64,000 nt of DNA from Branchiostoma floridae (Eukaryota > Chordata > Leptocardii > Amphioxiformes > Branchiostomatidae), in NCBI RefSeq assembly GCF_000003815.2, contig NC_049983.1, forward strand, positions 20,178,553-20,242,552. The letters are read 5' to 3'. Made by a program: the position numbers and the translations under genes. Each line of letters begins with the position of its first letter. Positions within the stretch are counted from its first letter, which is position 1. The notes beneath the pieces were generated by a model. The model saw only the letters and a list, made by a program, of their open reading frames with translations. It made no database searches and was not told the origin of the DNA. Below are positions 3,705 to 64,000 of this stretch, one piece after another.

Positions 3705-4473
3705 NNNNNNNNNNNNNNNNNNNNNNNNNNNNNNNNNNNNNNNNNNNNNNNNNNNNNNNNNNNNNNNNNNNNNNNNNNNNNNNNNNNNNNNNNNNNNNNN
3801 NNNNNNNNNNNNNNNNNNNNNNNNNNNNNNNNNNNNNNNNNNNNNNNNNNNNNNNNNNNNNNNNNNNNNNNNNNNNNNNNNNNNNNNNNNNNNNNNNNNN
3901 NNNNNNNNNNNNNNNNNNNNNNNNNNNNNNNNNNNNNNNNNNNNNNNNNNNNNNNNNNNNNNNNNNNNNNNNNNNNNNNNNNNNNNNNNNNNNNNNNNNN
4001 NNNNNNNNNNNNNNNNNNNNNNNNNNNNNNNNNNNNNNNNNNNNNNNNNNNNNNNNNNNNNNNNNNNNNNNNNNNNNNNNNNNNNNNNNNNNNNNNNNNN
4101 NNNNNNNNNNNNNNNNNNNNNNNNNNNNNNNNNNNNNNNNNNNNNNNNNNNNNNNNNNNNNNNNNNNNNNNNNNNNNNNNNNNNNNNNNNNNNNNNNNNN
4201 NNNNNNNNNNNNNNNNNNNNNNNNNNNNNNNNNNNNNNNNNNNNNNNNNNNNNNNNNNNNNNNNNNNNNNNNNNNNNNNNNNNNNNNNNNNNNNNNNNNN
4301 NNNNNNNNNNNNNNNNNNNNNNNNNNNNNNNNNNNNNNNNNNNNNNNNNNNNNNNNNNNNNNNNNNNNNNNNNNNNNNNNNNNNNNNNNNNNNNNNNNNN
4401 NNNNNNNNNNNNNNNNNNNNNNNNNNNNNNNNNNNNNNNNNNNNNNNNNNNNNNNNNNNNNNNNNNNNNNNNN
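3705..4473. other. Assembly gap (769 N)
   Basis: Run of undetermined bases. It lies between the 3' flank of the GPCR and its broken copy, so further receptor sequence could be hidden here. Long open frames spanning it are artefacts. Confidence 1.
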
Positions 4474-6712: not shown

Positions 6713-20813
<14,101 letters not shown>

Positions 20814-43998: not shown

Positions 43999-46900
43999 TC
44001 ACATACCCGGTGTTGTTGTGGAAGCTATGTCGGCCTTCATTGTTGTTGATGAAGCCTCCACCGTTGTTTGGAAAGTCACAGCGACTGTTGATGCTGATAC
44101 AGGTGCTGTTGTTGCTGATACAGGTGCTGTTGTTGCTGATACAGGTGCTGTTGTTGCTGATACAGGTGCTGTTGTTGCTGATACAGGTGTTTTTGTTGCT
44201 GATACAGGTGCTGTTGTTGCTGATACAGGCACTGTTGTTGCTAATACAGGTGCTGTTGTTGCTTGCACAGGTGCTGTTGTTGCTGATACAGGCGCTGTTG
44301 TTGCTTGCACAGCGGCTGTTGTTGCTGATACAGGCGCTGTTGTTGCTTGCACAGCGGCTGTTGTTGCTGATACAGGTGCTGTTGTTGCTTGCACAGGTGC
44401 TGATGTTGCTGATACAGGCGCTGATGTTGCTGATACAGGCGCTGATGTTGCTGATACAGGCGCTGATGTTGCTGATACAGGTGCTGATGTTGCTGATACA
44501 GGCGCTGATGTTGCTGATACAGGTGCTGATGTTGCTGATACAGGCGCTGTTGTTGCTGATACAGGCGCTTTTGTCGATACTGTAGTTGTTTGAGGTGCCA
44601 CTGCTGTCGTCTTTGCGGTTTCTTCAGTTGTCATTGATGGTGTTTTTGGCGGTGTCTCTGACGTTTCGGTGAACTGTGTCGTTGCTGCAATGGTGGTAGA
44701 CGGAGTCGCCTCCACCGCTGTCATCAAACCAGTTGTAATCTCATGAATCTGGATGGAAGAAGTTGTTGACACGTCGGTTGTCTTGGACTGTGTAGATGGA
44801 GGAAGGGTTGGCTGTGTTGTTGCAGATGTTGTCGTAACTAATGGATGAGTCGTTGACCTACCAGACGTCGAGAGAGCAGCGGTAGTTTGAGAAACCGTCG
44901 ACACGTCTTCTGTTGTGATTGCCCGAGATGTTGTGGACGAGGCAGCCACAGTAATGGGTGTTGTATTATCAGGTTGGGCCGACCACACTGGTTCTGTTGT
45001 ATTGTGAAAAATATTGTATCCGTTTGATAGATGTTTTGATTGATTTGTACAAGACTTATGGCGTTACTAGCCTACGAATACATACTACGTATACATCTGA
45101 ACTACAACATAGTACCTGACTAAAGAATGCCTTACAAAATCCCTCACCTTCACATCCCAGCAGCTCCATCCGAAAACGTATGAGATTACTAGTAAAGTCT
45201 TGTGGATTTACTCGGACGAAAGAGGCGATGATCGACAGATCAAGGTCATGGCTGACCACTGTTGCCCCATCGGAATTCGCAACAAAGACCTAGAGGCAAA
45301 GGTAGAAAACAACAAAAAGTCCTTTCTGCAACTCTTACTGAGTGACACATTGTAAATCCTTTAGTCTGTAAAAGTTGTCGGGTCTGCTGTTTAGAAATGA
45401 AAGGAACAAAAATGTTTTCATGTTTATAACTGGCCTAATAAAAAGACATAGCAAGTCATGTCAATAATACCTTGCTACTGTCCGATCCCGGTTCTTTATA
45501 GAGGGCCCCAAAGCCCTTTTCCGTAGAGCGTAATCGGCGGTTTTAATTCTACGTACTACGTAGCGGGACCGCTCGAATTCAACGTAGAGCGTAATCGGTG
45601 CATTTTGCGTCGAGCGATATTGGCCCCTTTAATTTAACGTATTACGTAGAAGCTAACCGGATTTTACCGTAAAACGTAATTCATATCAATTTTTCGTCAA
45701 GCGTAATCAAAGTTTCATTAAACTTAACTAGTCTACCGGTAAATTTTACCCGCGAAAATGCTAGCTGGAAATTGCGTTTCAAAGGGTCCAGATTTCAAAA
45801 TTTCGCCGGACATTCCTTGCTATGGCTCAACACTTCGGCACTGGACATGGTGAAAATATGTTGCGGGAGCGTTGTCCCCCATCTAGTAGAAATCTTTTTA
45901 CCGACCTTAGCTATATAGCTTAGTTAACAAGCAAAATGTGCCCCTTAAATGCAGGAAATGGCATTTCAGAGGGTCGAGATTTCAATTTTTCTCTGGGCGC
46001 CGGGCGGCCTTTGCCATCATGTAGGCTTGCGACGAGTTGGGCCTCCGGTGCTCACGACTCTCCGGCGCTCGTCGCCCTCAAAGACGTTTCTCAGACCAAG
46101 GAGGCTCAGACAGAAATGTCATTACATTGAGCATATGGTCTGCCAGCAAAATTTGTCCCTCAAAATGCAGGAAATGGTGTTTCAGAGGGTAAAAATTTCC
46201 AAATTTTCCCGTACCTACCTTGCGACAGTTCGACTGTTCGTGCTTTCGGCACTCGAAATCTGAAAATGATGTTTGGGGCGTTGCCCAGCGTAAAGCTAAA
46301 ACCATGTGAATTTCTAGCTGGATGCTATTTAACTTAGCTTAGTTTGTGAGCAAAATTTGCCCTTCAGAATGTATAAAATGGCGTTTCAGAGGGTCAGGAT
46401 TTCACAATATTCCCGGGGAGCATGCCCCCGGACGCCCTAGGATTGTCGCGCCTCCACTTTCGGTGATACAAGTGCTGAAAATTACGTCACATGAGAAATT
46501 TGCTGTCGCCGCCTTTGGCCAGCAAGACGTCTTTAGAAGTTAAGTTTTAATCTTATTAATGAAATTATCAGTTTTATTTAGATCTCATCTTCACATGTTC
46601 TGCCGTCGGCGGAGTTCAGCCAAAAGACAATAAATATTTGCATAATTATGAAATTTCGTAATTTAGCGTAGAGCGTAATAAAGTGTCCATAATTTAGCGT
46701 ATTACGTAGCCGGCCCTCCCGAATTTAGCGTAGAGCGTTGTCGCTACCCCCCCTTGGGGGCCCTCTTTATACACTGAGAGGCCGTCCTCTGTATCTCCGT
46801 AGAGAAGCCTGTAGCTCTTGACATGCCCTCCCCACAAACCCTGTGTCTGGATCCCGGTGATGATGGTTCTGTTGTTAAAGTTGACCTGTAACCACTGGTT

Positions 46901-48586
46901 AGTGTTGGCGACGTCTGCCTGCCAGGCACGGGGACCGTTCAGTCGGCCTTTGTAAGCCTCGTATCCGGCCACCTCCGAGGATGCCGAGATCTGACTGTCC
47001 TCGATATCACCACTTGCTATCCCCAGGGGAAGCAAGCATGAGGCTTTTGATACTGCAAGAAAAAAACTTTTTATTAGTATTGCGCAATTATTCTCGTCAA
47101 AATCAGTGGAAAGTTAGTATCATATCAACAAGTATATATGTAATCACTCAACGATTATAAATATGTATGGCATGATCTCTACAGGACTGAAACGTTCATC
47201 ACGGCATTGCGGCTTTCTTACTTGGAGTTCTCTGGTCTGCAAAAACGAATAACGGAGAATCATATCAACATGTACTTATTATCAATCATCTATTCTTGTT
47301 ACCTTGACATCGCGTCTCTACATACTCTGGCGTACACAGGCACTGGAACCCGGCAGCCCCGTCCACACATGTCCCCAGGTTGGCACAGGGGGACAATGTG
47401 CAGTAGTCGACGTAGTCTTGGGGAAAACAAACCACTATCATGAGCGTTGTGCAATTACATGGGTATTTCCACTTCTATTTGAAACCACTTTAGAGCTACA
47501 AAAATACTTGTAATGGGATCCGATTGCCATCACATGGACAATTATACCCTAGATAGCAGGTGTAAAAAAAAGTGCATTTTATATCAAACTTATGTGGCCG
47601 TGGAAAAAAGTCATTTTGATATTGTGAATAGTGACAACTAAATGGACGTTACTGAATCTACCTGTTTCGCACAGCAAACCAGTGAACCCAGCAGCACAGA
47701 AGCAGCTGTATCCACTCGGTGTGTCTGTGCACGTCCCTCCGTTCTGACATATCACGTCAGTACAGTCAGCGTGGTCTGGATAACAGATATAATTAAATTA
47801 ATATCAAGACATACGCCATCTGAAAATAATTTCTGATAGTTGCAGACAATGCGCTCGGCAAAATTAGTGGATATGATTAGCACGGTAGTTAATGGGCTCA
47901 GGGAATACAATCAGTCAATCAGTCTACCTGGGAAAGAAAACGTTGCAACGAAGCCATGCCCAGGTAAGAGCCCGCCGAAGTCTCCCGAGTAAAAGCGGAC
48001 CAACAGGGACCCTGATGATGACTGTATCACATCTGGAGGCGCGAAGTTCCCGTTCTCATCTCCACAGTACCGTCCTAGTGATGGGGCTGATGGGGATGAA
48101 CCGTCAAATACTGATACAGATGGGTTAAAGTCTGTACACCCAAACAGTGATGATAGAAACGTGAATTCTTCAAACTGAAGTAGAACTTGTCCCATGGGTG
48201 CTTCAATGATCCAGTCACACGTGATCTCATCACCTATCAGATCAGGATAGTTGGGAGACGTGAAGTTCCTAGTTGAACTGCCTTTGTTAAGGGTTCCTCC
48301 ACAGGTCTGTCCCATTGACCCTAAAGTAATAAATAAAGATTGCCAATAGAGTTTTATTATTTACAAATTAATGACGTATTAAATACACTTGATGGTGACA
48401 TGGAATTTAATGTAAATTCTTGGCGGATTGAGGAATATGTGGTTCAAAAGAACCACAGACATAGTCTCGATGCTTAAATATCGCATGTCGCTATATATTG
48501 ACAAATACGTATTCTAGATTCTACTAACCATGAGTAAATGCCAACAAACAGGAGACCCAGACAGGAGCAAATGCTGGAAACGTCAT
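43999..48586 (-). CDS. Gene A: CUB-EGF-EGF-discoidin-mucin protein, interrupted by a transposon
   Basis: Exons in gene order: signal peptide 48529-48586; CUB 47928-48320 (four Cys, ends FSFPG); EGF 47662-47775; EGF 47303-47416; discoidin part a 45471-47052; discoidin part b 45148-45289; mucin-like exon from 44993 down. Module exons all start and end in phase 1; discoidin a and b are split in phase 0. The discoidin-a exon contains the mobile element at 45501-46763. As assembled, the frame runs into it and stops at 46694, giving a 345-residue product cut inside the discoidin fold. Without the insert the exon is 311 bases, like its paralogs, and the frame runs to a TGA at 43999 (708 aa). A GTATGT donor at 44006 could instead splice onward. 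No TM helix was found, so A may be secreted. Function is unknown; discoidin domains often bind glycans or lipids (family knowledge). Confidence 0.85.
44092..44580 (-). repeat. 21-bp coding minisatellite (mucin repeats) in gene A
   Basis: About 23 tandem copies of a 21-bp unit coding for seven residues of the ATTAPVS / ATSAPVS type on the minus strand. The Thr/Ser/Pro content predicts dense O-glycosylation. Copies fall into subtypes, for example PVSATSA near the 5' end of the array and PVQATTA in the middle, showing unequal-exchange history. Confidence 0.93.
45501..46763. mobile_element. 1.26-kb DNA transposon inserted in the gene A discoidin exon
   Basis: Flanked by the 8-bp direct repeat TCTTTATA (45493-45500, 46764-46771). 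Ends are GAGGGCCCC and GGGGGCCCTC; if both are counted as terminal inverted repeats the duplication is 6 bp (TTTATA). Sub-terminal sequence is rich in CGTAGAGCGTAAT and TACGTAATACGC motifs at both ends. The centre holds three clear copies of a ~210-bp repeat (GCAAAATTTG starts at 45931, 46146, 46350) plus a decayed fourth. No transposase frame, so it is non-autonomous. Confidence 0.92.
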
Positions 48587-50517
48587 GCCTTTCACAGTAT
48601 GTACCAGGAGTTCAGGTAGAACTCAGGAAAACGCCCAGCCGTATAGGTGCGTCGACTGAGAAAACTATGCAATCTTGTAAATGTTTTTCCAATATGACTA
48701 AGAGAATACTAATCTGGCTTCCCAGGCGTATTAATGAGCACGGTCTTTTAAGTGTCGGAATGTCAAACTCGTTAAAGAAGAACTGGACTGACGCCTGGGG
48801 AGCGAGGTTAGAGATGGTCAGGACTTAATTCAGTCAAAACTTTCAAATCAATCGCCATTATGGTTGACACGTGTAAACAATGTCAACACGTTTTCATCAG
48901 CTATTGACCCCTGCTGCGCACGTTTTGAGCACTAGGTAATGAAGGGAAGCCATCAGCTATGCTGAATGTACTTGTCTTAAACACTTATTCACAGTTACTT
49001 TGATAATGGTGACTTCATTTCAATTAAGGCTGAACAATTGCAATGCGAACAATGGTACCATTTATTTAGAATAAAGACCACTAATCAATGTTTAGGTGAC
49101 CAGGAAAGTATACATCACAGTGCCTAACAGGCCGAGTTCGAGTTGTAGACCTACTGTGCGTGACATTATATCTGTCATAACCCACAAGAAAGTAATTAAT
49201 GTTCCATCGCAATTTTCTTAAGATATTTGATAGTGAGAAACGTTATTATGTTAACGATTCTCTATGTATTTTGTATATTTATGTCGAGTCTATCGCGCTA
49301 TGGTTATACAAACTTAAGAAGCATAAGGACATTAATTTAAGTGTCACTTGATCAATTGTCTGTTTGTCAAATTGTGTCAATAGCGATTTATTTGTTACAA
49401 GTTCTTGAGTTCCTGTACTGACTTTGTGTGATGTCGCTCCGTAGCACGAAGTTGAAACAGCTAGCGAAACACAAAATACAATATCACTGCGTGTCATATA
49501 TCCGTGTGCCACATCGGTGCTACGTCCCTATGCGATGGAGAGGTTACATGTGTGTGTATGTTATGCGCTAGTGCACCTGTCAAACACTACTCAAAATACG
49601 TTCAGCAAACATCAAACAGTGCAGGTTATGTAACCTTAAATCATTAACCCCCTCTCCCTAATGGGTATGACGGAGGTCAGTGGTGTCAGGGTGAGGGGAC
49701 TAAAGGTTGTTTGCTGACAGAGTGGTGTGATCAGCGTCCTTGATACCTGTTTGCCTAACAAACTGTCACTTCAGTTACTCTCATATGTAATAAAGGTATG
49801 GTTTGAAAAACTCACGGAATGACATGCGAGATGGCAAATTTGTTCAACTAATAGGGATTTAATTATCAATGGGCTGTGGAATAACCTCAACGTAAAGGTA
49901 CCCACCAATTACAGAGCTGTACATACTGGTATTAAAACGGCGTTCTTGTTGTATATTATGATACAGCCATTTCCTTATGAGCGATATTGTCATGAAAAAA
50001 GACATTCACAAATATAGAGATTAACGCTAGTTCACCTTTATCCGTGGGATAACCTATACCCGTTGTGTTTCAAAACAGCACATTTAGGGATCTCAAGTCG
50101 ACTGACGGTTGTTTTATATTGTAATGTTTTCAAAATATAGCAGTTTAAACTCACATTTCGTTCGCATGATAGCCCTAAATACCCTGCTTTTGAAAACAGC
50201 GGATTTAAGTTGCCCCACTGATAAAGATGAACTAGCGTTACCCTTCCATTGTTGTTTAGTGTCATCCTTGTCAAACACAACTACTACTAATAGTACCACA
50301 CCACACTCTGAAGGCTTTCTGTACCCTTGTTGAGTACCCATGCTATCCGTTTGTACCGTTCCAAGACAATGGGTGATTATGAAGCTCTTCTCACGTAGAG
50401 CTCGACACGAGTCAGTGATTGACAGACTCTTGAGCAGTGGAGACAGAGTGTATCGGACGACTCGAAAAGAAGCCAATGAAATCACAGCATTCTCTGGTTA
50501 CAACAGAACGTTTTGTT
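48587..50517. other. Intergenic between divergent genes A and B
   Basis: No gene recognised. Short frames on both strands (for example 49279-49512, 50114-50485) lack domain features. The region should hold the promoters of A (minus) and B (plus). Confidence 0.6.
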
Positions 50518-50558
50518 CAGTACAAATATTATCACACCCTTCCGTTTACACAAGATAA
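50518..50558 (+). promoter_or_regulatory. Conserved upstream block of gene B
   Basis: About 41 bases beginning CAGTACAAATAT and ending ACAAGATAA match 60343-60384 upstream of gene C with few differences. Downstream of each, TTACATCATA recurs (50716 and 60432). They lie about 205-245 bases before the respective start codons, so shared regulatory sequence or a recent duplication is likely. Confidence 0.6.
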
Positions 50559-50763
50559 AAAGTTGCGAAGAACAAAGAATCCGCTGACAATCACCATCAA
50601 AGGCGACCTTATAATGTCACCAATGGGCACCGCCGGGATAAATGTGTTTGGCGCAAGTTCGTCTGGGAAGTGCCCAAAGACGAAGAAGACTTCATGACTA
50701 GGTGCGCTAGGTAAATTACATCATACGGATTTTTTTTCCGTTGTGGGACTACTAACAGACAAC

Positions 50764-53700
50764 ATGATGCCGTTTGGCAACCACATCACCGTATGTGTGC
50801 TGATTCTGACGACATTTGGACCGTTAGGTGAGTGTTTTATCCTCGATCTTTGATGGTCACACTTAATTTGTAACTACCCTCCTCTCTCTTCTGGTGTTGG
50901 TGCTTAACAATAATATAAGTCGCACGTGCGATTGGCGTCTTTCTTGTACATTTTCAACGTAGATCCTATCCTGCCTTGGATAGATACACATAGTAATTAC
51001 CTCCAGCCGTTATTGAAATAATGAATACATAAAATTGGTCTAAACTTGTTTGGGTGGGGTGACTGCCTTTTACAGCTGTGTATGTACTTTATATGCAGAA
51101 AACTTGATCTATACATATTCGGAACACTGTTTCAGCACACTAAGTGCATCAAAGATCCGCAAATTGAAGATTTTTCTTAAAGTGAGTGTTTCCATGCCAG
51201 TGGGGGATCTCAAGTATGAACGCATACTGTCTATGTACTCAGGGCAAATTTGTTTTACCTTGATAAATATATAATCGGCACGGTGGTCATAGGCCCTAGG
51301 GGTACCGGTACGCACGCGCAGAGGATAGTTCTGGACAGAAGGATTGGATGGGATGACAACAATTACCTTCTAGTCATAGTAGTCATCAGGCCAATTAGCC
51401 ATGTTCATGTTACGCAGTACCATTTGCTTTACACAGACATAAGGCGTACCATAGGAATGTCACCATACTTCATATCTGAATGTAAGATTCATGACAATAC
51501 CAAATATTTCTGTTGTATAGAATTCATACGACATTAATGTAATCATCGATATTTTGGACAATAGTGACATTCTGATAGAATGAGATTAGACCACTGTTGG
51601 CCATTGAACGTTGTACAAAATGCTGAGTGAGCCTGTCCCATCAACTTATCAGCCTCAAGTTAGCAGATTCATTATCCTCGGCTCCGGTGTTCTGATAGTG
51701 TTTCTATGGTTATTCTACTTATGTGTCTCAATGGCTTATATTGTTTTGTTTATCAGATCAATTTCCTCCCATGGTCGCTAATTCTGACAGACATACAAAG
51801 ATTCACATACAAAACTCCCATAGTCAGTTCGTAGACATATTTCTTTGAATATAATGGCAGTATTGGAATACACTGGTTATGTTGTTATGAGTTATGCGCT
51901 TATCAATGTAAACAGAAAATGGTTTTCCTTCAAATGACTTCTTAAGAGTGCTTTTGAAATGTTACTATGGATGATTTGGTCATGTTGATTCAACATGCTA
52001 ACCTTTGATCACAGTGGGAGACTATATTTTTTAGTAAATTACCATTCGCAATGCTGATTCGCCGTGTCTCTTATTCAGTTACTTCTCAAATTCAACTACC
52101 CACATTATTCATATGGTATACGAAAGTCATGAGAAGTGGGGAGATGTAAGACTAAACACACACAGCCTATCTATAGATACAAGTTACAAGTAGTTCAGGA
52201 AGGCATGTTGTTTGGAGGTAAGAGAACTATTGCAATAGTCTTATTCTTAACCTACTAGTAACAGATGAAAACAGCTTAAAGGGTTTTTTAAACTATTACC
52301 AATAATACATCACTAAGACAGTAAGAAATACTAGTGCGCTTTTCCGAAAGGCACATTTGAAGTCTGGTGACTTAGATGTTCTGCTTTTCCCCCTCAAAAT
52401 GAGATATTGCGCAGTCAAATCATAATCTCTTGAAACAGTTTTGCCCAAACATAAAGTGTGATGACCAACCGAGGTACAGTGTCTACATCGTTGTGATATT
52501 GTTTTCCCTGTGTACTTTCAATATTCATAGGATCAATAGGACAGACCTGTGGAGGAACTCTGAACGAAGACACTACGACTAGGAACTTCACATCTCCCAA
52601 CTACCCAGAACGACTCTCAGCGGACGTCACGTGTGAATGGATTATCGAAGAACCTATGGGTCAAGTTCAACTGCAGTTTCAGGACTTTGATTTCCCACCT
52701 ACAGTATTTGGGTGTTCTGACTTTAATCCATTCCTGTCCATTTATGATGGTTCAACAGCATCAGCCCCATCCCTGGGACAGTACTGTGGAGATGAGAATG
52801 ATATTTATGCTCCACCAGGCGTGGTAGTATCATCTTCAGGGTCACTGCGTGTCCACTTTTATTCTGGAAACTTCGGTGGACTCTTACCTGGACAAGGCTT
52901 CGCTGCCACGTTTTCTTTCCAAGGTAAAGCTTATTTTCATTCATCTCATTTTGCCACAGGTACACAACTGACCTCGTCTACATACCATCACTCAGCATTT
53001 CAACAATTGCCCTAATTCCTAGACATTGCCAGTTTTGGTGCCATCCTGGGAAGTCTATGTTTCTGCCAGAACTAAGAGGGGACGTACGACACATCGGTGA
53101 TCGAAAATACATTACAGGAACAGAAAAGTATCCTGAGGATAGGAGACTACTACAAAGTGTCATCCTATCAAAGTTGAATATGAATATAGTACTGTTGCTG
53201 AGAAAATGATTGAAGATATTTCCTTATGCTACTTGGGACATTGTTGTAGACAACGAATAGGGAATGTAAATCATACGTGCACTGCTCTAGATTTCAAAGA
53301 GAAATACTCCTGTATCAATATGCAACATACATACTGATATCTTTTGTTTCCACAAGGTGATGTAGATCATTGTGCATCGTCGCCCTGTACCAACGGAGGG
53401 ACATGTGTGAATGCACCTAACGGTTTCCAGTGCCTGTGTACGCCAGAGTATATCGGGAAACAATGCCACGGTAGTTATTTCTGAGACATCTCTATTCAGC
53501 ATTTCGTCTGTAGAAAGGTAGAAAGTGCAATATAAATTTATATACCGTGCCATCACCACCATTGCCTTGCTCATGCTGCATCCATCCTTTGGTTTAAACC
53601 GGACATGTATCTTATTTTCATCCTCAGTATCACTGGGCTGAGCCAATCAGCATGTACGTGTAGTAGCTTTGAGAATATAAATGTATTATACATCCAGCTC

Positions 53701-56700
53701 AAAATCATTATATTAGTTCTCTTTAGAAGACAATTACTTCTTAATGAGGGTAACCGCAAGCAGCCACAAATCTGTATACCAAATCTAGCAATGACTTACA
53801 GTAATACAGGCAATCAAAAATGTTGCTTTTATCCAGTGACATTTTTATAAAAATTGAAATTTCTTTGTATTTTATATAGTGTCGCGAACATCATGCATGC
53901 TGCCACTGGGGATGGCAAGTGGTGACATTGAAGACAGTCAGATCTCAGCATCAACAGAGAGGACTGGGTACGAGGCTTACAAAGGTCGACTGAACGGTCC
54001 CCGTGCCTGGCAGGCAGACGTCGCCAACACTAACCAGTGGTTACAGGTCAACTTTAACACCAGAACCATCATCACCGGGATCCAGACACAGGGTTTGTGG
54101 GGAGGGCATGTCAAGAGCTACAGGCTTCTCTACGGAGATACAGAGGACGATCTGTCAACATACCAAGAGACTGCATCAAACAGTAGCGAGGTATGAATTA
54201 ATCTCCAGGCAGATTTACCAGGTGGCATGAGATAGTATCAAAGCCGGTCAAAGATTGTAGCCGGGCCAAAGGGTGTCAACCGGCTTTGATACTATCTTAT
54301 GCCACAGGTACATCAGCCTGAAGATTACATGTAGGTATGAGTTACACCTGACCTACCCTATGCAAAGTATCTGCCAAGTCCCTTTAAAGCTGGAAAGAAT
54401 GTTTATCAACAAAACGTTGTTATAATTAGATAACGGAAGGTGCCGCAACTTCGGACGTAAATTTACCAGTTCGACATCGTATTGTAGCAGTGTCAGTTGT
54501 CTGAAAACTTTTGCGTTTTGACTAATGATAAATGAGAGTGGTGGTGTTAAGGGATTTTCCGTCCGGGAGTTTATTTTCCATCGTCCATGCACAATTTACA
54601 CCATGAGTATTGGGACATGTTGTCTTTGTAGTTCAATGGCATATGTTTTTTTGGTCATTTCCACTTTCTATGCATGCTTGTAGGTCTTTTATGCGAATTC
54701 CGACGGAGCAACCGTAGTCAGTCATAATCTTAATGTACCGATCATCACCTCCATCCTGCGAGTGAACCCTCAAGACTTCACGGTCGGAATGATACGACTT
54801 CGATTAGAGTTGCTGGGATGTGAAGGTGATGTTTTTACCATTGCTAGGTATGAAGTGTGCAGTATGGACAATGTTGTATTTCTCGCTGTTAACATACTGT
54901 TCATAATTCACTTTCTCAGATGCTGCTAACCGTACTTGAACTTTGATCCAACAAACAATTTTTGTTAGTTAGATTTAGGGAGTCGACGTTATTGAACATA
55001 TCATCAAAGTTTGCTTTGGAACTTAAAAACGTGTGCTTTCTTCAATGGTTCCTTGAGGTTCTGTTTAATACTTGTTAGGGGGTCATTGTGCGCATAGTTG
55101 GGTGTATTAAAGAACTCAGTCTTCCAACTTGACAGCATCATTGTTCATAATGTTTTATGCTCTGGTTTGTTTTGTCAGAATACGACCACTGTGCCTCGTT
55201 GCCCTGTAGTAACGGAGGGACATGTGTGAATGGACCTGTCAGTTTCCAGTGCCTGTGCCCCCCGGAGTATGTGGGAACACAGTGTCAAGGTAATACGTTC
55301 TTACTTTTAAGGCAGAGCGCCCCTTTTGTTTTGGTTAAAATCAAGGCAGTTGACAGAGCTAAATACTTTTACCCCGTCATTGTCAACATTGCCAGGCTTC
55401 CGATGTCCTATATGACAGAATAAATCTACGAGGGTAAGTCAGAAAGTAATGCAAGTGGTTTCATAACAGACTCGTTTTTTAATCAATTGAGTTTAAATTT
55501 GGCATAAAGGTAGAGATATATGTCCTCTTGAGATTGAACGTTTTAAATTTGGTCTTTATCATTTTATGAGCAACTGAGTTGATTTCAATATGAACACACC
55601 CTTGGTAGCTTGTCAGACTATCGATTCCTCTAAATCAGACCCCTTGAAAAATCACTGTAGGAGGTTGAAATTATATATGTATGATAACAAATGTCTCTAT
55701 AGGTTGCGTACCAGTTTTCATTTCTAAACTCGTAATGGTTCTTTATTTACAGCTGCTAGGATGCAGTAAGTTGCGTTATAGAGCGGTTGGATTTATACAC
55801 GAATTCGTGAGTTGTTGGTTAAAAGACTACTTTTCCATTTACCAAAAGAAACGAAACTTTACACAGTTATTAACTGTTTAAAGACTAAAAAGTGTGCTAA
55901 GTTTCATTTCTCTTTGTTAATGAAAAAGAAGGCTACAGAAATTTTTAATCATAACACTGCAGATCTCATGACCCTGAAGACCGCGTATACCTCACTCTAC
56001 ACCAGCAACGAAAAAAGAAATACTGCTCGGATTTCAGTGTTGAAAATAAGCGTGTGGCTTATAGAGAAATGCAGCTTATTGCATGTGCTGGCTTAGTCTC
56101 CTACAATAGAAAAAATTGGTTTAGGGAAATTCATAATTGTACGTTAATTGGACCCCACTTTTCTTTTGACGGGATACCAAGGGTGTGGTCACCTTGAAAG
56201 CAGCTCAGTCACTCATAAAACAATTAGCAACAAATTTAGATGTTTCAATCTCAAGAGGAGATATGTCTTAACCTTTGTGCCAAATTTCAACTCATTCGAT
56301 CAAAGAACGACTCTGTTATGAAACCACTTGCATTACTTTCTGACTCACCCTCGTATCTACATTTTTTGCGCAGTCTATGTCATAATCTGTAGAGATTGAC
56401 TGACAGTAGTAGCAGTAGTATTTACATTTATCTTATTTTCCTTAGTATTGAAGTCATTGTGCTCCCTGCCCCTGGGGATGGCAAGTGGTGACATTGAAGA
56501 CAGTCAGATCTCAGCATCAACAGAGAGGACTGGGTACGAGGCTTACAAAGGCCGGTTGAACGGTCCCCGTGCCTGGCAGGCAGACGTCGCCAACACTAAC
56601 CAGTGGTTACAGGTCAACTTTAACAACAGAACCATCATCACCGGGATCCAGACACAGGGTTTGTGGGGAGGGCATGTCAAGAGCTACAGACTTCTCTACG

Positions 56701-59578
56701 GAGCGACAGAGGACGGTCTGTTGATGTACAAAGACACCGGGTCCAACATTGACAAGGTTACCATCATTTACTTGTACGTTATACTACACGAAAATATCCT
56801 GACTATCTGTTAGGTGTTGTAACCACGATATATAATTCCTTGGTATAATTCCTTGTTATACTGAATATTAAACATTTAATGATCATAGGATTCTTTTCCA
56901 GCCGATGATGTACATTTGTTTATCTTGATATTGTAACGGAATGTAGTTGATTTTTCTGTTTGTTTTCCGTCTCTACCTCCAGGTTTTTGACGCTAATTCT
57001 GATGGTTCAGCAGTGGTCAGTCATGTCCTTGAAGTACCGGTCACTACGTCCATCGTGCGAGTAAACCCTCAGGACTTCACGGCCAACTTGATACGTCTCC
57101 GTATAGAGATGCTAGGATGTGTGGGTGAGAAATTTAAGCTCTCCTCGTCTGGATTTGGTAGTTTTGACACTGGTCACCGTTACTCACAGTAGCTTAAATA
57201 ACGACCATTTTCCGCATACGTTTTTTGTTTTATCTGTCAATAGTCTGTAAAAATAAAACACCTATCTTCTTTCATTATACAATTGCAACAGACGCAGTTT
57301 ATGTTGGATCAACCCAACCAGGAACAACCACACTGAGTACGTCCGAGGCAACCACAACAGACGGCGCGTCAACAGTGTTTCCAACTACACTCGCTCTATC
57401 AACACCAGACAGGTCAACTACACAGCCTGCAATTACAACGACATCTGCAACAACACAGCCAACTCAACCTCCATCTACACAATCTAGTACAACTGAAATG
57501 CCGACGACCAGTCTCAGTCAGACTCCATCTAGCGTAAAGACAGCAACGACACCAAATCTTCTGACATCCTCAACAGCGACAGTACAGCCAACGGAGACAT
57601 CAGTGACACCATCCTTTATGACACCAGGACCATCTCCAATAATCACCTCAACAACGCATATAGAGGAAACTGTGGTGACAACATCAGAAACATTTGTTGT
57701 AGAAACGTCAGAGACACCGCAAGTTACAACATTAAAACCGTCTACTGTACCTATATCAACAACGAATATGGAGGAAACTGTATTGACAACAACAGAAACA
57801 TTCATTGTAGAAACATCAGAAACACCATCAGTTACAACACCTACCGTATCTACATCGACATCGCCTATGTCTGAGGAAACTGTCACAACAACAGCAGCAG
57901 CATCAACTGCAACAACCTCAGCTACCATGGCAACATCAACGACACCGACATGTATGGTAGAAACTACAGAAGCAACAACACCTCCGACAACAAAATTATC
58001 AGTGTCATCTCAACCTACAACAACGCCATTACAAATGGTAGAAACATCACCCAAAACAACAAATACAAAAACTTGTGCCCATACGACAACAAAGGAGGCT
58101 TCCACGTCAAAGAAGACCAACATACCACTTCCAGTAGAAACCACGAAACCTGACTTGATCAAGACAACGAAGACTCTTTGGAAACATACCACATCGGCTG
58201 AAGATGGTGGTAAGGCTGAACAGTCAGGCGACAGTGGAGGAGGAGGAGGTAACACCGCGGTGTTCGCTGCTGCAGGAGCCGCAGGAGGAGTAGCGGTCCT
58301 GGTCGGAGTGGGAGTCTCTATCTTCATCTGCAGAAGACGCGGAAGGTAAAGGAAATTGTCTATAGAATATTAACTATACTCAAATCGATTCTTAATCTAC
58401 TCACTGCACTATGTATTCATCATTTGTCACCATAGCTTGGTTGCCACATTGGAGTTACAAATGCGCAGTACGTACACATTTAGAATAACAAAGCATTGCG
58501 TAGTACAAAGACGTTCAATGTCTCATACGACTATACAATGTAACTTGATCAACATAAATACTCTCATTTCTCTTTTCATTATTACGTAGTATTAAAAATG
58601 ACATTGCAGGAATTCCGAGGCTTGTGGTGTACCAATGCATCGTCTGGAGGAGAACAACAATCCTAAAACGTAAGTTGTTTGTGGAAATATTTCCATTTCG
58701 CTCCTTGTTTGACATATGAATTGGGTTATAACGTTTGTTGCCACGTTTGATGTGGACATTTTGCCTTGATGAGCTAAGTTTATTGACATAACCCCCATGC
58801 ATAGAGTACTCTATGAATATTTACTGGGAATCGCACGTATTATATCTGTCGGTGTGTAATATGTTTGCATAATGCGGCAGTGCTATATGTAAACATTCCT
58901 ATAGAGCTAACTGTTACTGTTACGAGGCGAAATGTCATTGACGTCACGTCTTGAGCGAAAAGTAGTGACTTCAGATTCATTTAAAGTTTACGAAATAGCT
59001 TGATTCGATGACTCAGCTAGTCTGAATGGTAACAGCTGTATAGGGTGATTATCAATGCATTCAACAGTTCGTTATATTTTTCTGTATCTCTACTCTAGTC
59101 ATAATCACGTCGCTGATGTGGAAGTGGAGAATCCCCTCTACGGAACGTAAGTGACATGTGACATTTGATTGTACTCTTGAGACTTATCTTGGACAAGTAA
59201 CGTTATCTTCAAAATTCCCTTGCTTCACCCCAAAGGAAGTGAAGTATTGTGTTTTGCTTGTGTGTGTTCCAGTGTGGACGATTACATCATATGTGTGTCT
59301 GTGTATGTCTGTGTGTGTGTATGTGTCTGTGTCTGCGTGCGTGTGTGTGTGCGTGTGTGTGTGTGTGTTTGCGTGTGTGTGTGTGTGCGCGCGCGCGTGT
59401 GTTTGTGTGTGTGTCTGTCTGTCTGTGTGCGTGTGTGTGTGTGTGTCTGTCTGTTTGTCCGCCTGTCTGTGTGTCTGTCTGTCTCTCTGTGCAATCAAAT
59501 TAACAGACGCAATTCTGGTCTTTCAGGATGAGTAAAGCGGACGGAGTGGGTCTGGCCGTGGCTGACAGCTGTGCGTGA
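50764..59578 (+). CDS. Gene B: CUB-EGF-discoidin-EGF-discoidin-mucin transmembrane receptor
   Basis: Complete gene, 2802 coding bases, 933 aa, 12 exons: 50764-50827 (signal peptide), 52531-52923 (CUB, residues 22-152), 53357-53470 (EGF, 153-190), 53880-54190 and 54684-54825 (discoidin, 191-341), 55179-55289 (EGF, 342-378), 56446-56756 and 56983-57124 (discoidin, 379-529), 57292-58345 (Thr/Ser-rich stalk, then TM about 852-876 ending in RRRG), 58610-58669, 59099-59146, 59527-59578. It is a type I membrane protein with a tail of about 57 residues. The tail contains NPLY (912-915), an NPxY-type sequence known from adaptor and endocytic signals. Modules are phase 1-1, fit for exon shuffling. Neuropilins, DCBLD and MFGE8/EDIL3 share domains but not this order. 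Ligand and role unknown; adhesion or pathogen recognition is an inference. Poly(A) signal AATAAA at 60021. Confidence 0.93.
54222..54305. repeat. 84-bp hairpin in a gene B intron
   Basis: Two 27-base arms starting GTGGCATGAGATAGTATC and ending GATACTATCTTATGCCAC pair with a single mismatch around a 30-base loop. It lies 31 bases after the donor of discoidin-a exon 1. A tiny MITE or a pre-miRNA-like fold are both possible. Confidence 0.8.
55429..56353. mobile_element. 925-bp mariner-like element in a gene B intron
   Basis: Flanked by TA on both sides. Long terminal inverted repeats of over 100 bp begin CGAGGGTAAGTCAGAAAGTA on the left and CGAGGGTGAGTCAGAAAGTA on the right strand complement, and both continue through CCTCTTGAGATTGAA. 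A TA duplication and CGAGGGT ends are typical of mariner/Tc1 elements. A weak frame at 55812-56096 shows no transposase motifs, so the copy is non-autonomous or decayed. Confidence 0.85.
59290..59485 (+). repeat. (GT)n / TGTC microsatellite in the last intron of gene B
   Basis: Runs of TGTG with interspersed TGTC and GCGC steps, followed by GTCTGTCT. It creates Cys/Val and His/Thr open frames on both strands that are not genes. It ends about 40 bases before the final exon of gene B. Confidence 0.95.
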
Positions 59579-60020
59579 CGTCAGTAGTAATGGCCGGGAG
59601 GACCTTGCAACTCCCTATTGTGACTGAGACTTTCCCTAATATGTATCAATAGATCGTTGAGAACAGGGGGATTTATCGGACTTTTTGTGTAGTTTGAACC
59701 TAAATGTGTAATATTGCAATGGTCAAAGCTTTTTTTAGCTGTACAGCATACAACTACATTGCAATTTAATAGCAACTTACTGCCTTCATATTGCCCCGCT
59801 ATGCATATCGAATACTCTTCTATGCAGTGTAAGCTTAGTATGTCACTGCCTCACTCAAGGTAATTGTCTTGTATCAGTGTTTGTGTATAAATAACCAGTG
59901 TTCGGTTATTTCTAGCAAAATTCTTTGGAAATGTGGATTATTAGAATATTTGATAAACAGGAAAAGCAGTGCTATTTCTATTGTGTAAATACCTGTACAT
60001 GCCATGCTCCATTTAAGTGC

Positions 60021-60026
60021 AATAAA
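60021..60026 (+). promoter_or_regulatory. Poly(A) signal of gene B
   Basis: AATAAA about 440 bases past the gene B stop codon, in otherwise gene-free sequence; a good candidate for 3' end formation. Confidence 0.6.
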
Positions 60027-60342
60027 ATAGATACGCTATACTGGTTTGTCAGGTTTTTTGTGTACACTGTATGAAAAGAATCTGTGCAACCTTAATCACT
60101 TTATTCATACCGGCTCTCTTTTTGGTGGCTATTCTTATCGCCCACTACCCGGGTAAAAGTCAGATAAGGTTAAACGTCAAAACTATGAGTAACATGGATT
60201 CCTTAAGACTATGGAAACTTTAATTCAAAATATGTCTGTAAGCTATGCTAGTCACCATTGGTTGGACATTTCTCGAGAAATATTGACAAAAAGCTAAAAG
60301 AATCACGGCATACCTTAGTGATAACCGCTAGCGCCCATTGGT

Positions 60343-60384
60343 CAGTACAAATATCAGCACACCTTTCTGTTTGCACAAGATAAG
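60343..60384 (+). promoter_or_regulatory. Conserved upstream block of gene C
   Basis: Counterpart of 50518-50558 upstream of gene B (CAGTACAAATAT ... ACAAGATAA), followed by TTACATCATA at 60432. It lies about 205-245 bases before the gene C start codon. Confidence 0.6.
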
Positions 60385-60587
60385 ATAACTGGAGAGAACA
60401 ATCCGCCGCCAGTCACCACTGTGCACGCCTTAGTTACATCATATGGGTGGAGATAGATGACTAATAGATGACGCAAAGGCTTGCGGGATATAGGTATCAT
60501 AAAATGAGGTAATTACATACATGCATGATTCGGGTGTTGTCAGAGAGCTACACTACTTCGTCGTGGCACGTGTTTAACAATCGTGCG

Positions 60588-63500
60588 ATGGTGAAGGAAT
60601 ACCGGCGGAACAAAATGATCTCATCTGGCAAAATCCTCGTTGTAAGAGTTCTGATGCTGGTGGCATTCGGGGCGTTAGGTGAGTGTTTTTCTTAGAACAT
60701 GTTTAATGACAATTACCAGTCTATGTTGTTAGTTGACATTATGATTGTGATTGGCAGCTTTCTGTGCGTTTCCAATGAAACAGGTTTTCAGTTCTCAGAA
60801 GATAACACCAAATACATTAACGTAAAGAATGTTGAAATTACGTCTCAAACCTATAATCAATCAGACATAACTATACAATTCTATCAAGAAGAAAGTATTC
60901 CATGTGACAAACAAAGATAGTGAGATAGCTGTAGGAGAACGACTCAGTCGGATAGAGGGTTTGCGCCAGTCATTGTGTTCAACAGGTTCTACACTGTCAC
61001 TTAAACTAGAAGAAGAGAAATGAAAACAGAAATAGAGTGGAGTAGTATTTTCGGTATAATGTAACATTTTAAAGCAGATCTATTCACACAACACCATGTA
61101 TATTTTACAAAATACGCCTTCTGTTCTTAGTTAAGGTTTCATCACCACACGTGCCGTGGGGATGTTTGACACTGTACTTTTGTACGTCATGTGGTGGCAT
61201 GGGTTTTGACATACAGATTTAGATCAAGATCGAATACTTCTGTTGCGTTACAATTAGTACAAGGGGCGTCCCTGACCTATAGTTGCATCGTGCTGTAGGT
61301 AGGCTGCAACACGTTTGACCTATGAAACATTTAACAGAGTTCTAAACGCAGCAGATTTCATCATCTCTTTGTTTTGTATTTGTATTTGTTTTCCTGGCTG
61401 TCCTGGCATGACCATTAGATATTCATAATTTTCGGGAGATGGTGTTATATGGTTTCAAATGTCAGTCTTCTCTAAAGTATGCTGAAAATTGATATTGGAT
61501 CTAAACTGACCTCTGCTCTTCAAACGTTGTTTGCTACTTAACGTATCTTTCATCCCTTTTGCACCGGTTGTGATCTTTGAACTTTGATTAAGCGATTTTA
61601 CTTGTTACAAAGGCACGCAGGTAAGTAGTATAAATCCAGACGCGCAGGTTGATATCTACAGTATCTTCTCTCGTTCAAAACGATAAAATATTTGGCGGCA
61701 AGCAACGTTAACCCCTTCCATAACTCTGATTTCTTAACATGTCACCTATTGCTTCAGATAAGAACAGTTCAAACATAGGGTGTGGTTATCTGTTGATTGG
61801 AGTTTTGTCCTGTCTTTGGTAAAATATGACTCAAGCGACAGAGAATGTGAGAATAAATGTCATTGCGATAGGCTATCTGCCCTAATCTCAGAGCCATTGG
61901 TTTTACTACCACGGCTCGTTTACTAGCTCCCTCAAAAATGTATTTTTAGGAAGCCAGTTTGGGGGGGGGGGAGGGTAGGATGACACCCAGGCAATCTCTG
62001 TCCAGCGACACTGGCAGCATTTCAAGTGAGATATTGCTCAAGGAATCCATAATATCTGAAGTCATTAATTACTAACATGAATACAAGTGCAAGCATGTGT
62101 ACACTGACAAGAGAATCATGCACAGATCCGACTGTGATTGTTCGTTTTATGATTTATTAGCAGCTTATAATTAGCAGTTTAGGTCCAGTACACTGAGCTG
62201 AGCTGATATGATTTGTTTTTATTTCTAGGGTCAATGGGGCAGAACTGTGGAGGAACTCTAAACAAAGACAGTCCGACAAGAAACTTTACATCTCCCAACT
62301 ACCCTAGACCAGTACAAGATGGCGTCACTTGTGACTGGATCATCGAAGCACCCATGGGTCAAGTTCATCTGCAGTTTGACGACTTCATTTTCGCGCCAGC
62401 AGTATTTGGGTGTTCTGACTTTAACGCGTTTGTGTCAGTGTATGACGGTTCGTCCACATCATCCCCATCACTAGGGCGGTACTGTGGAGATGAGATCGGG
62501 AACTTCGCGCCTCCAGACGTGATACAGTCATCTTCAGGGTCTTTGTTCGTCCGCTTCTACTCGGGAACCTTCGTTGGTCTTACATCTGGACAAGGATTTG
62601 TTTCAACTTTTTCTTTCCCAGGTAGAATGTTTATATTCCCTATTTTGTTTGTATTACTACATCGCTAAACGTATTGTCTGCAACTATCAGAAACTTTTTT
62701 TTTTCATTTACTGCCAATGCCTATCACCCGATATTCCCATGTATAAAGCTTTATTGTACACTTGGTTACAATTGTGTTTGATATGATATCGAATCATGCT
62801 TGTTTCCAGACCACGCTGACTGTACTGACGTGGTGTGTCAGAACGGAGGGACGTGCACAGACACACCGAGTGGATACAGCTGCTTCTGTGCTGCTGGGTT
62901 CACTGGTTTGCAGTGTGAAACAGGTACACAGTGCCTTTTATAGAACGGTTGTTTTTTTAGTCTCCATAGCAGGCTCTCTGGGCTTTCTTCCGTCTTTTTT
63001 TTGTGTCACAATACAGTTTTGCTTGCCTTTTGTACTGGGTCGCTTGTAGTACTCGTCATAATTACAATGTTAATATTAGTGGTTGTTTTGTTTTGTTTTC
63101 TCACAAGAAAACGTCGACTACTGCGCATCGTCTCCTTGTACTAACGACGGGACATGTGTGAATGTACTTGGCGGTTTCCAGTGCGAGTGCACGTCAGAGT
63201 ATGTTGGGACACAATGCCAAGGGTAATTTATTCCCAAATCATTATATTATTCTAGTAACTATCATCACCAGGTGGTAGGTTGGCGCTTTGCGGCTTAAGA
63301 ACAGGGACTTACACGTACACTACAGTCGCTGTTGATTTCTACAATAAAGTATGTTAGCATAGGCAGATTTTTCCATTACAAATCAGTGTATAAATCATCA
63401 CATCAACAAATTTCATGTTTTGTCTGGCTTAGTGTTAAAATCCTCATGCTTGATGCCTCTGGGGATGGAAAGTGGCTACATTGAAGACAGCCAGATCTCA

Positions 63501-63743
63501 GCATCAACAGAGAAGACTGGGTACGAGGCTTACAAAGGCCGACTGAACGGCCCCCGTGCCTGGCAGGCAAACATCGCTAACACTAACCAGTGGTTACAGG
63601 TCAACTTTACCACCAGAACCATCATCACCGGGATCCAGACACAGGGTTTGTGGGGAGGCCATGTCAAGAGCTACAGGCTTCTCTACGGAGATGCAGAGGA
63701 CGGCCTGTCGGTGTATAAAGAACCTGGTTCGGACGGTAGCAAG
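60588..63743 (+). CDS. Gene C: CUB-EGF-EGF-discoidin protein, partial (continues past the window)
   Basis: Exons seen: signal peptide 60588-60678 (a second in-frame ATG at 60615 gives a more typical signal peptide), CUB 62229-62621 (393 bases as in A and B), EGF 62810-62923, EGF 63108-63222, discoidin part a 63433-63743 (311 bases). The second discoidin half and the rest lie beyond 64000. The domain order and the first EGF (TDTPSGYSCFCAAGFTGL) match gene A far better than B, so A and C are closest relatives. At the second EGF exon the canonical donor (GTAATT at 63223) leaves one base too many; the phase-1 join used elsewhere needs the exon to end at 63221, where the next bases are GG. Used as is, the frame stops about 18 codons into the next exon. 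63844-64000 is A/T-rich and resembles a retroelement tail. Confidence 0.85.
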
Positions 63744-64000
63744 GTATCAGCGACATGTATATTTTTGTGATAATGAATGTAAACATAAGTATGAGAAATA
63801 GCATTTCTACATCATGTACTCCATTTCACTGTGGCACTTTACATGTACTTTTCATTTTTTTTTTCATTTCAAACTTTATTTCAGGCTCTTGGCTCATATC
63901 GCATACATAATAGACATAAAAAATATACAATATAACAATACAAATACACTTTATGTACAATAAAAAAGATGAATTACCCGGGGCTTTTGTAAATAAGATT

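Follow-up and report, generated by a model that had tools for sequence, protein, structure and literature searches.

What kind of protein is encoded by a cluster of lancelet genes that combine CUB, EGF and F5/8C-type (FA58C) modules, and how were these modules put together? We addressed this in a stretch of 64,000 nucleotides from Branchiostoma floridae (assembly GCF_000003815.2, contig NC_049983.1, here C5; C5:20178553-20242552), which we call the window, and in the genome around it (513.4 Mb in 431 contigs). Four related genes, A, B, C and D, adjoin on C5 within about 33 kb, with gene A inverted. Judged by the predicted products, they most likely encode type I membrane receptors of one small family. 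The locus bears on a dispute, namely whether lancelets rapidly acquire domain combinations (Huang et al. 2014) or only seem to do so because genes are mispredicted (Banyai and Patthy 2016).

We propose that this family of shuffled modules encodes endocytic or phagocytic receptors with an NPLY uptake tail, in which the first FA58C exon is kept alike by gene conversion. We would place this proposal evenly between right and wrong. The intact genes are described first, followed by the tail, the homogeneous exon and the ligand sites, and each alternative is weighed where its evidence appears.

Architecture of genes B and D

At least two of the four genes, B and D, are intact, with open models and GT-AG junctions. 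Gene C is apparently open if one EGF exon is skipped, and gene A is apparently broken. In gene B all 11 introns are GT-AG and the 933 amino acids (aa) contain no internal stop. The product consists of a signal peptide, CUB, EGF, FA58C, EGF, FA58C, a Thr/Ser-rich stalk (320 aa, 44% S+T), a transmembrane (TM) helix and a tail (Table 1). Pfam matches were far above chance, with two F5_F8_type_C stretches (1.8e-30), two EGF (7.7e-16) and one CUB (2.1e-14). These checks, as well as the search of gene B for RGD, were made on an 881-aa form of the model ending at 58349. That form was dropped when the conserved tail exons appeared in C and D; its stop is reached only when the donor AAG/GTAAAG stays unused. 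Both EGF domains of B carry O-fucose and O-glucose consensus sites. The signal peptides of B and C are 45% identical across 22 aa. One intron of B holds an inverted-repeat element, which we take to be mariner-like.

Gene D adjoins gene C and lies entirely outside the window (L009-L010). Its model of 1217 aa in 19 exons, without internal stop, gives the order signal peptide, CUB, five EGF, FA58C, EGF, FA58C, EGF, FA58C, stalk, TM helix and tail, and Pfam recognised seven EGF and three F5_F8_type_C stretches. The CUB, EGF and F5/8C modules of the cluster exceed the Pfam cut-offs, and at an E value of 0.001 the only families found in the B and D models were CUB, EGF-type and F5/8C-type.

A preliminary description of this DNA, made from its letters, had given both the domain order of B and its length of 933 aa correctly. 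Its suggestion of a cell-surface protein is supported. It had counted three paralogs and assigned the TM helix and tail to B; there is a fourth gene, D, outside the window, and C and D have a TM helix and tail as well.

Could such architectures be artefacts of the gene models or of the assembly, as Banyai and Patthy argued for lancelets? According to these authors many lancelet domain combinations are prediction errors and misprediction rates are high (PMC4967905), and A and C are indeed imperfect in this assembly. B and D, however, are single open models that run from one signal peptide to one TM helix with matching phases at every junction. They also have a common upstream block and homologous tails, and a fusion artefact would hardly be produced twice. 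We therefore regard an artefact as highly improbable. The block upstream of B, C and D is itself a putative promoter or 5' element.

Phase-1 modules and their duplication

The introns between modules are in phase 1, in B (6/6) as well as in D (12/12), when FA58C is counted as one module of two exons. These two exons are joined by a phase-0 intron and the tail introns are in phase 2. The earlier statement that every module exon is bounded by phase-1 introns thus holds for the modules but not for the exons. One exception among the module borders is the donor of the type b EGF exon in gene C, described below. The EGF-FA58C cassette occurs once in A, once in C, twice in B and three times in D. The idea of a linked family whose phase-1 modules are gained and lost in frame is supported, and gene D with its seven EGF and three FA58C modules is the stronger evidence for it.

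The family would diversify through in-frame duplication and loss of phase-1 exons. For lancelets, Huang et al. (PMC4284660) reported duplication and loss of phase-1 module exons, a 1-1 phase bias, promiscuous domains and transposons nearby. The shuffling mechanism is already known in these animals, and the domain order matches no compared family. Going by the splice models, B and D speak clearly for phase-1 exon shuffling, and A and C show the need for caution.

Gene D also contains near-identical tandem units. Its EGF exons 2-5 lie in an array of 234-bp exon and intron units (4.5 copies, 94%; L009:6808-7857, C5). Three full introns of the array are 99-100% identical and the EGF exons 92-97.5%. 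Within about 33 kb, the splice sites reveal sister genes that differ in having one, two or three FA58C cassettes, with as many as seven EGF exons and with near-identical tandem exon units. Since sister genes differ in cassette number, tandem exon duplication can be studied here directly and its rate could be measured across individuals.

A bolder idea, which we find doubtful, is that the locus is a live copy-number-variable system. Unequal exchange between phase-1 units would change the number of EGF exons and EGF-FA58C cassettes within an individual as well as between individuals, conversion would homogenise only the FA58C exon with the ligand loops, and there would be one NPxY uptake tail. 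If true, reach and valency would vary and specificity would be shared, which would amount to an exon-level diversification of phagocytic receptors.

A conserved tail with an NPLY motif

The tails of B, C and D (about 57 aa) share VPMxRL, PHIxNPLYG[AT]M and a final DS[CS]A, that is, S-x-A. The central motif reads VENPLY, IGNPLY and IENPLY in B, C and D, with V, I and I at -5, and the C-termini are DSCA, DSCA and DSSA. PHIxNPxY was present in 0.14% of random 57-mers with the same composition. Among the three tails the nonsynonymous divergence (dN, 0.36-0.39) is lower than the synonymous divergence (dS, 0.72-1.08), which supports coding constraint. The preliminary description was right about a TM helix with a short tail in B, but it missed the conserved NPLY motif as such.

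In CED-1, Draper and MEGF10 the NPxY of the tail is linked to CED-6/GULP, and mutation of the MEGF10 NPxY abolished GULP binding (PMC8092387, PMC1762421). Because the NPLY tail is conserved and NPxY has this link, we infer that uptake through a PTB adaptor is the likeliest role. The CUB/EGF/F5/8C head would be held off the membrane by the Thr/Ser-rich stalk, which is probably O-glycosylated, and would capture a protein or glycan ligand. A single TM helix would lead to the tail (about 57 aa) with its PHI-x-N-P-x-Y and C-terminal S-x-A. NPLY would then recruit a PTB-domain adaptor of the GULP/CED-6, Dab or ARH type, and the bound material would be internalised. The NPLY tail offers a simple testable hypothesis of the receptor role.

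The same proteins might instead belong to the adhesion or glycocalyx proteins, with a stalked sticky head on an epithelium or at a cell-cell contact and without uptake or signalling. Long Thr/Ser stalks such as that of B are in line with this, and FA58C and EGF occur in adhesive proteins, for example in sea-star footprint proteins (PMC9382459). A passive adhesin, however, would not need a constrained tail with PHIxNPxY and a conserved C-terminus. We see adhesion as possible, if on the unlikely side.

Homogeneity of the first FA58C exon

Among the seven FA58C copies, silent divergence was lower in exon 1 than in exon 2 in 21/21 pairs, which are non-independent (medians 0.27 versus 0.88). At the fourfold sites common to all seven, 9/26 varied in exon 1 and 11/12 in exon 2 (permutation p 0.0005). 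In codons 47-80, 5/102 columns vary, as against 79/144 in exon 2. The G+C content of third codon positions (GC3) is higher in exon 1 (0.62-0.67) than in exon 2 (0.46-0.56), an excess of the kind that GC-biased conversion predicts.

A similar pattern was seen in the type a EGF exons of A and C, which differ at 0/16 fourfold sites, as against 18/52 in their CUB exons (Fisher 0.007). Over 47659-47807 in A and 62778-62926 in C the type a stretches are 96.5% identical, and the CUBs 80%. This likeness is probably due to exon-sized conversion between inverted copies. For the homogeneity of FA58C exon 1, we infer that gene conversion fits best. Conversion would keep the first half of FA58C near-identical in seven copies and let the CUB, the second FA58C half, the stalk and the tail diverge.

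Several points weigh against uptake receptors shaped by conversion. Some receptors have NPxY without internalising their ligand. With its similarity to SEA, the PDZ ligand of neuropilins, the C-terminal S-x-A could instead indicate a co-receptor function. Other tail motifs, such as the immunoreceptor tyrosine-based activation motif (ITAM) and the like, were read by eye only. Low silent divergence in exon 1 could come from codon or splicing-enhancer constraint. The run-length test for conversion, made on the six pairs of A, B1, B2 and C, was mixed: with all variable sites B1-B2 gave 0/2000 shuffles and A-B2 0.03, and with silent sites only A-B1 gave 0.02. Finally, the exons of the D array are more diverged than its introns, which is the reverse of simple recent unequal crossing-over, although the numbers are small. 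Our confidences in the different explanations overlap, as a neuropilin-like head could be joined to an uptake tail, and they need not sum to one.

Candidate ligand sites of the head domains

The cluster FA58C aligns end to end, Cys to Cys, with the C domains of factor V/VIII, which were its best single-domain matches, and also with neuropilin b1. Its first spike loop is 4-5 residues shorter than in C2 of factor V, factor VIII and a venom homolog and not shorter than in their C1; the second is 2-4 residues shorter than in those C2 domains. The loop aligned to ISRETQNGYY of neuropilin-2 is six residues shorter in the cluster; this is presumably the C-end-rule pocket loop of b1 (S/E/T loop). Since these loops are shortened, the geometry known for C2 or C-end-rule binding is less likely to apply. 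Glycan or lipid binding had been suggested for the family. The lipid part is weakened by the comparison with C2, even though the first loop equals that of C1 in length, and lipid binding by FA58C now appears less likely.

This bears on whether the proteins could be a phosphatidylserine receptor or bridge for dying cells, binding through FA58C as MFGE8 does. EGF together with paired FA58C in B, the factor V/VIII C domains as best matches and a first loop as long as in C1 would fit. The loops fall short of the factor V/VIII C2 domains (first 4-5, second 2-4 residues), and the proteins carry a CUB, a TM helix and a tail. RGD was absent from the 881-aa form of B and from the three tails, the heads of C and D lying outside this search. 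We judge this function improbable.

In an alignment of the CUB domains with cubilin, read by eye, P replaces the D of xDYLxVYDG in genes A, B and D, and A replaces it in gene C. Calcium-binding CUB domains of the C1r/C1s/MASP type presumably have a conserved Asp before the ..YDG strand together with other acidic ligands.

The head as a whole matched neuropilin-2 best among solved structures (6.2e-46, four matched stretches). A neuropilin-like co-receptor would bind a growth or guidance factor through CUB and FA58C and signal through a PDZ protein at the S-x-A of its tail. The last three residues of B, C and D are S-C-A or S-S-A, and those of NRP1 and NRP2a are SEA, a PDZ ligand (PMC5641316). 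Yet the ISRETQNGYY loop is shortened, there is one CUB and not two, EGFs are interposed, no MAM was found in the B and D models, and the cluster tails carry NPxY. Neuropilins are not known to have NPxY. We consider a co-receptor unlikely; it and a passive adhesin are the main rivals of the uptake receptor that we propose.

Genes C and A

Gene C continues past the window edge (L009) with FA58C exon 2, the stalk, the TM helix and three tail exons. The donor of its type b EGF exon, CAAGG/GTAATT, is one base off the phase-1 pattern of the paralogs. When this GT donor is used, the following exon is out of frame; when the exon is left out, the frame is open to the tail end (835 aa). Since the donor is shifted and the frame is open only without that exon, the order CUB-EGF-EGF-FA58C is not established for C. 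The defect is possibly an assembly error. The preliminary description had overlooked this donor, as it had the broken state of A.

The same order had been given for gene A, and its CUB, two EGF and FA58C exons are recognisable on the minus strand. In A, a 1,265-bp element (45501-46765) splits FA58C exon 1. Among the best 40 of 3040 candidates in the genome, 41 other matches were listed, of which 35 cover nearly its full length and are 90-96% identical. The element, a non-autonomous repeat, has no long open frame inside and a repeated site of 6 bp (8 bp counting a shared GA). An assignment to a class was tried, and the terminal repeats and the 6-bp repeated site gave no decision.

No TM module homologous to that of B was found for gene A, either locally or genome-wide. 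Seven hydrophobic frames were listed downstream, and an unrelated TM exon may be among them. A tail homologous to that of B was also not found there, and pattern scans of the vicinity did not reveal a counterpart of the block upstream of B and C. The stalk exon of A is open. At 44085-44574 it contains 23.3 tandem copies of a 21-bp in-frame unit (APVSATT), a repeat that is possibly length-polymorphic. The CUB dN/dS among A, B and C is 0.22-0.27, with A-B (0.22) not above B-C (0.27). We read gene A as an inverted, truncated copy that would have been broken recently. Because FA58C exon 1 is interrupted, a homologous TM module and upstream block are missing and the signal-peptide candidate is weak, gene A is not shown to work.

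Table 1. Features of genes A, B and C and of the block upstream of B, C and D (window coordinates unless L009 is given)
Feature	Position	Strand	Basis
A, weak, non-homologous signal-peptide candidate, donor GTTAGT	48529..48586	-	sequence comparison
A, CUB exon	47928..48320	-	Pfam, splice sites
A, EGF exon type a	47662..47775	-	Pfam, splice sites
A, EGF exon type b	47303..47416	-	Pfam, splice sites
A, FA58C first exon, upstream piece	46766..47052	-	Pfam, splice sites
Repeat element in A FA58C exon 1; terminal inverted repeats GAGGGCCCC, TATAAA both sides	45501..46765	.	repeat comparison
A, FA58C first exon, piece past element; first 6 bp are the repeated site	45471..45500	-	self-comparison
A, FA58C second exon	45148..45289	-	sequence comparison
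A, Thr/Ser-rich exon, S+T 42%	44007..44993	-	composition, open frame
Upstream block, putative promoter/5' element	B 50513..50560; C 60338-60385; D L009 ~4184-4222	+ (B)	self-comparison, pattern scans, B/C/D alignment
Gene B, whole	50764-59577	+	splice model, 933 aa
B, exon 1, signal peptide, ends phase 1	50764..50827	+	splice model
B, CUB exon, phase 1-1	52531..52923	+	Pfam CUB, splice model
B, EGF exon 1, phase 1-1	53357..53470	+	Pfam EGF, splice model
B, FA58C-1 first exon, phase 1-0	53880..54190	+	Pfam, splice model
B, FA58C-1 second exon, phase 0-1	54684..54825	+	Pfam, splice model
B, EGF exon 2, phase 1-1	55179..55289	+	Pfam, splice model
Inverted-repeat element in B intron; terminal repeats 40/41 matching, TA at both ends	55427..56355	.	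self-comparison
B, FA58C-2 first exon, phase 1-0	56446..56756	+	Pfam, splice model
B, FA58C-2 second exon, phase 0-1	56983..57124	+	Pfam, splice model
B, Thr/Ser-rich stalk and TM helix exon, ends phase 2	57292..58345	+	composition, splice model
B, tail exon 1 (VPMHRL)	58610..58669	+	kept in C and D
B, tail exon 2 (VENPLYGT: PHIxNPxY motif)	59099..59146	+	kept in C and D
B, tail exon 3, end ...VADSCA (C-terminal S-x-A), then stop	59527..59577	+	splice model, tail alignment
C, exon 1, signal peptide	60588..60678	+	splice model
C, CUB exon	62229..62621	+	Pfam, splice model
C, EGF exon type a, 96.5% nucleotide identity to that of A	62810..62923	+	Pfam, splice model
C, EGF exon type b, GT donor shifted one base, out of frame if used	63108..63222	+	Pfam, splice sites
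C, FA58C first exon	63433..63743	+	Pfam, splice model

Genome setting

Genome-wide at an E value of 1e-8, the cluster CUB was found in A, B, C and D (61-100% identity), and the next match was 42% identical among the best 150 of 229 candidates. For FA58C exon 1, the best 150 of 309 candidates contained seven matches at 84-100%, all within the cluster; outside it there was one match on C4 at 72%, followed by matches of at most 58%. The TM module occurred only in B, C and D (6/6 candidates scored). The same genome contains at least 166 F5/8C matches. A scan for further copies downstream had been suggested, and gene D was found there; of the 60 kb examined beyond the window, the other ~47 kb yielded no more cluster modules.

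The C4 match belongs to a dispersed relative (L035, C4:5764001-5768000) with EGF-FA58C-Thr/Ser-rich exons, whose FA58C exon 1 is 72% identical to that of gene B; no CUB was present within the 4 kb read. In the other FA58C clusters (C7, C10, C11, C15 and C235), FA58C exon matches were 31-58% identical, with one 22-residue piece on C15 at 77%. The cluster CUB had no match in 20 stretches from these clusters, and on C11 no match passed an E value of 1e-4.

Long open frames with F5/8C, most of them of 1235-1350 aa, were noticed in the C6:22022710-22023096 region (L002) and at C16:11.75 and 12.25-12.30 Mb. The L002 frame, the only one read, combines F5/8C and a kringle with an amiloride-sensitive sodium channel domain (Pfam ASC 4.4e-63). 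This channel is apparently intronless in the stretch read, which we had not expected.

Upstream of the cluster, the window contains a rhodopsin-type seven-transmembrane gene, IFT122 exons and SNF2-helicase exons. A 39-bp tandem repeat lies between IFT122 exons (13265-13715, 11.6 copies, 93%), and 769 N in a row at 3705-4473 mark an assembly gap or a withheld stretch. Rfam at gathering scores gave no match in the window.

Comparison with known systems

Among the titles and abstract openings listed, with most subscription journals outside the coverage, we found no description of a lancelet family with CUB, EGF, FA58C and a mucin stalk. The available parts of the LanceletDB and lancelet pangenome papers name no such gene. 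The lancelet genes of Huang et al. 2014 likewise have symmetrical phase-1 module exons, promiscuous domains and transposable elements nearby. That survey is genome-wide, and EGF and CUB have 0 occurrences in its main text, so the cluster is not described there under those names.

That the domain order differs from neuropilin, DCBLD and MFGE8/EDIL3 had been stated before and is supported by the Pfam results for B and D. Neuropilin-1 and -2 resemble the cluster in an N-terminal CUB, F5/8C, a single TM helix and a short tail with a C-terminal S-x-A. They have two CUB, two adjacent F5/8C and a MAM, whereas B and D have one CUB, F5/8C split by EGF and no MAM by Pfam; in the cluster the binding-pocket loop is shorter and the tail contains NPLY. 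The S-x-A common to neuropilin and to B, C and D is a short motif and as such weak evidence of membership. Membership in the neuropilins was rejected, as the defining domain order and the pocket loop do not agree.

MFGE8/EDIL3 share with the cluster the presence of EGF and F5/8C in one protein. They are secreted, with the EGFs first, two C-terminal F5/8C and an RGD in an EGF, whereas the cluster proteins begin with CUB, have EGF between the F5/8C domains and end in a TM helix and tail. DCBLD1/2 are likewise type I membrane proteins with CUB and F5/8C, but LCCL lies between these two and EGF is not known in them; in B and D no LCCL was found by Pfam.

CED-1, Draper and MEGF10 have an EMI domain and EGF arrays and, unlike the cluster proteins, are not known to have CUB, F5/8C or a mucin stalk. 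ITAM is present in MEGF10 and Draper (PMC8092387). These receptors resemble the cluster proteins in their extracellular EGF-like modules, single TM helix and NPxY tail, and it is at the tail that the two are alike.

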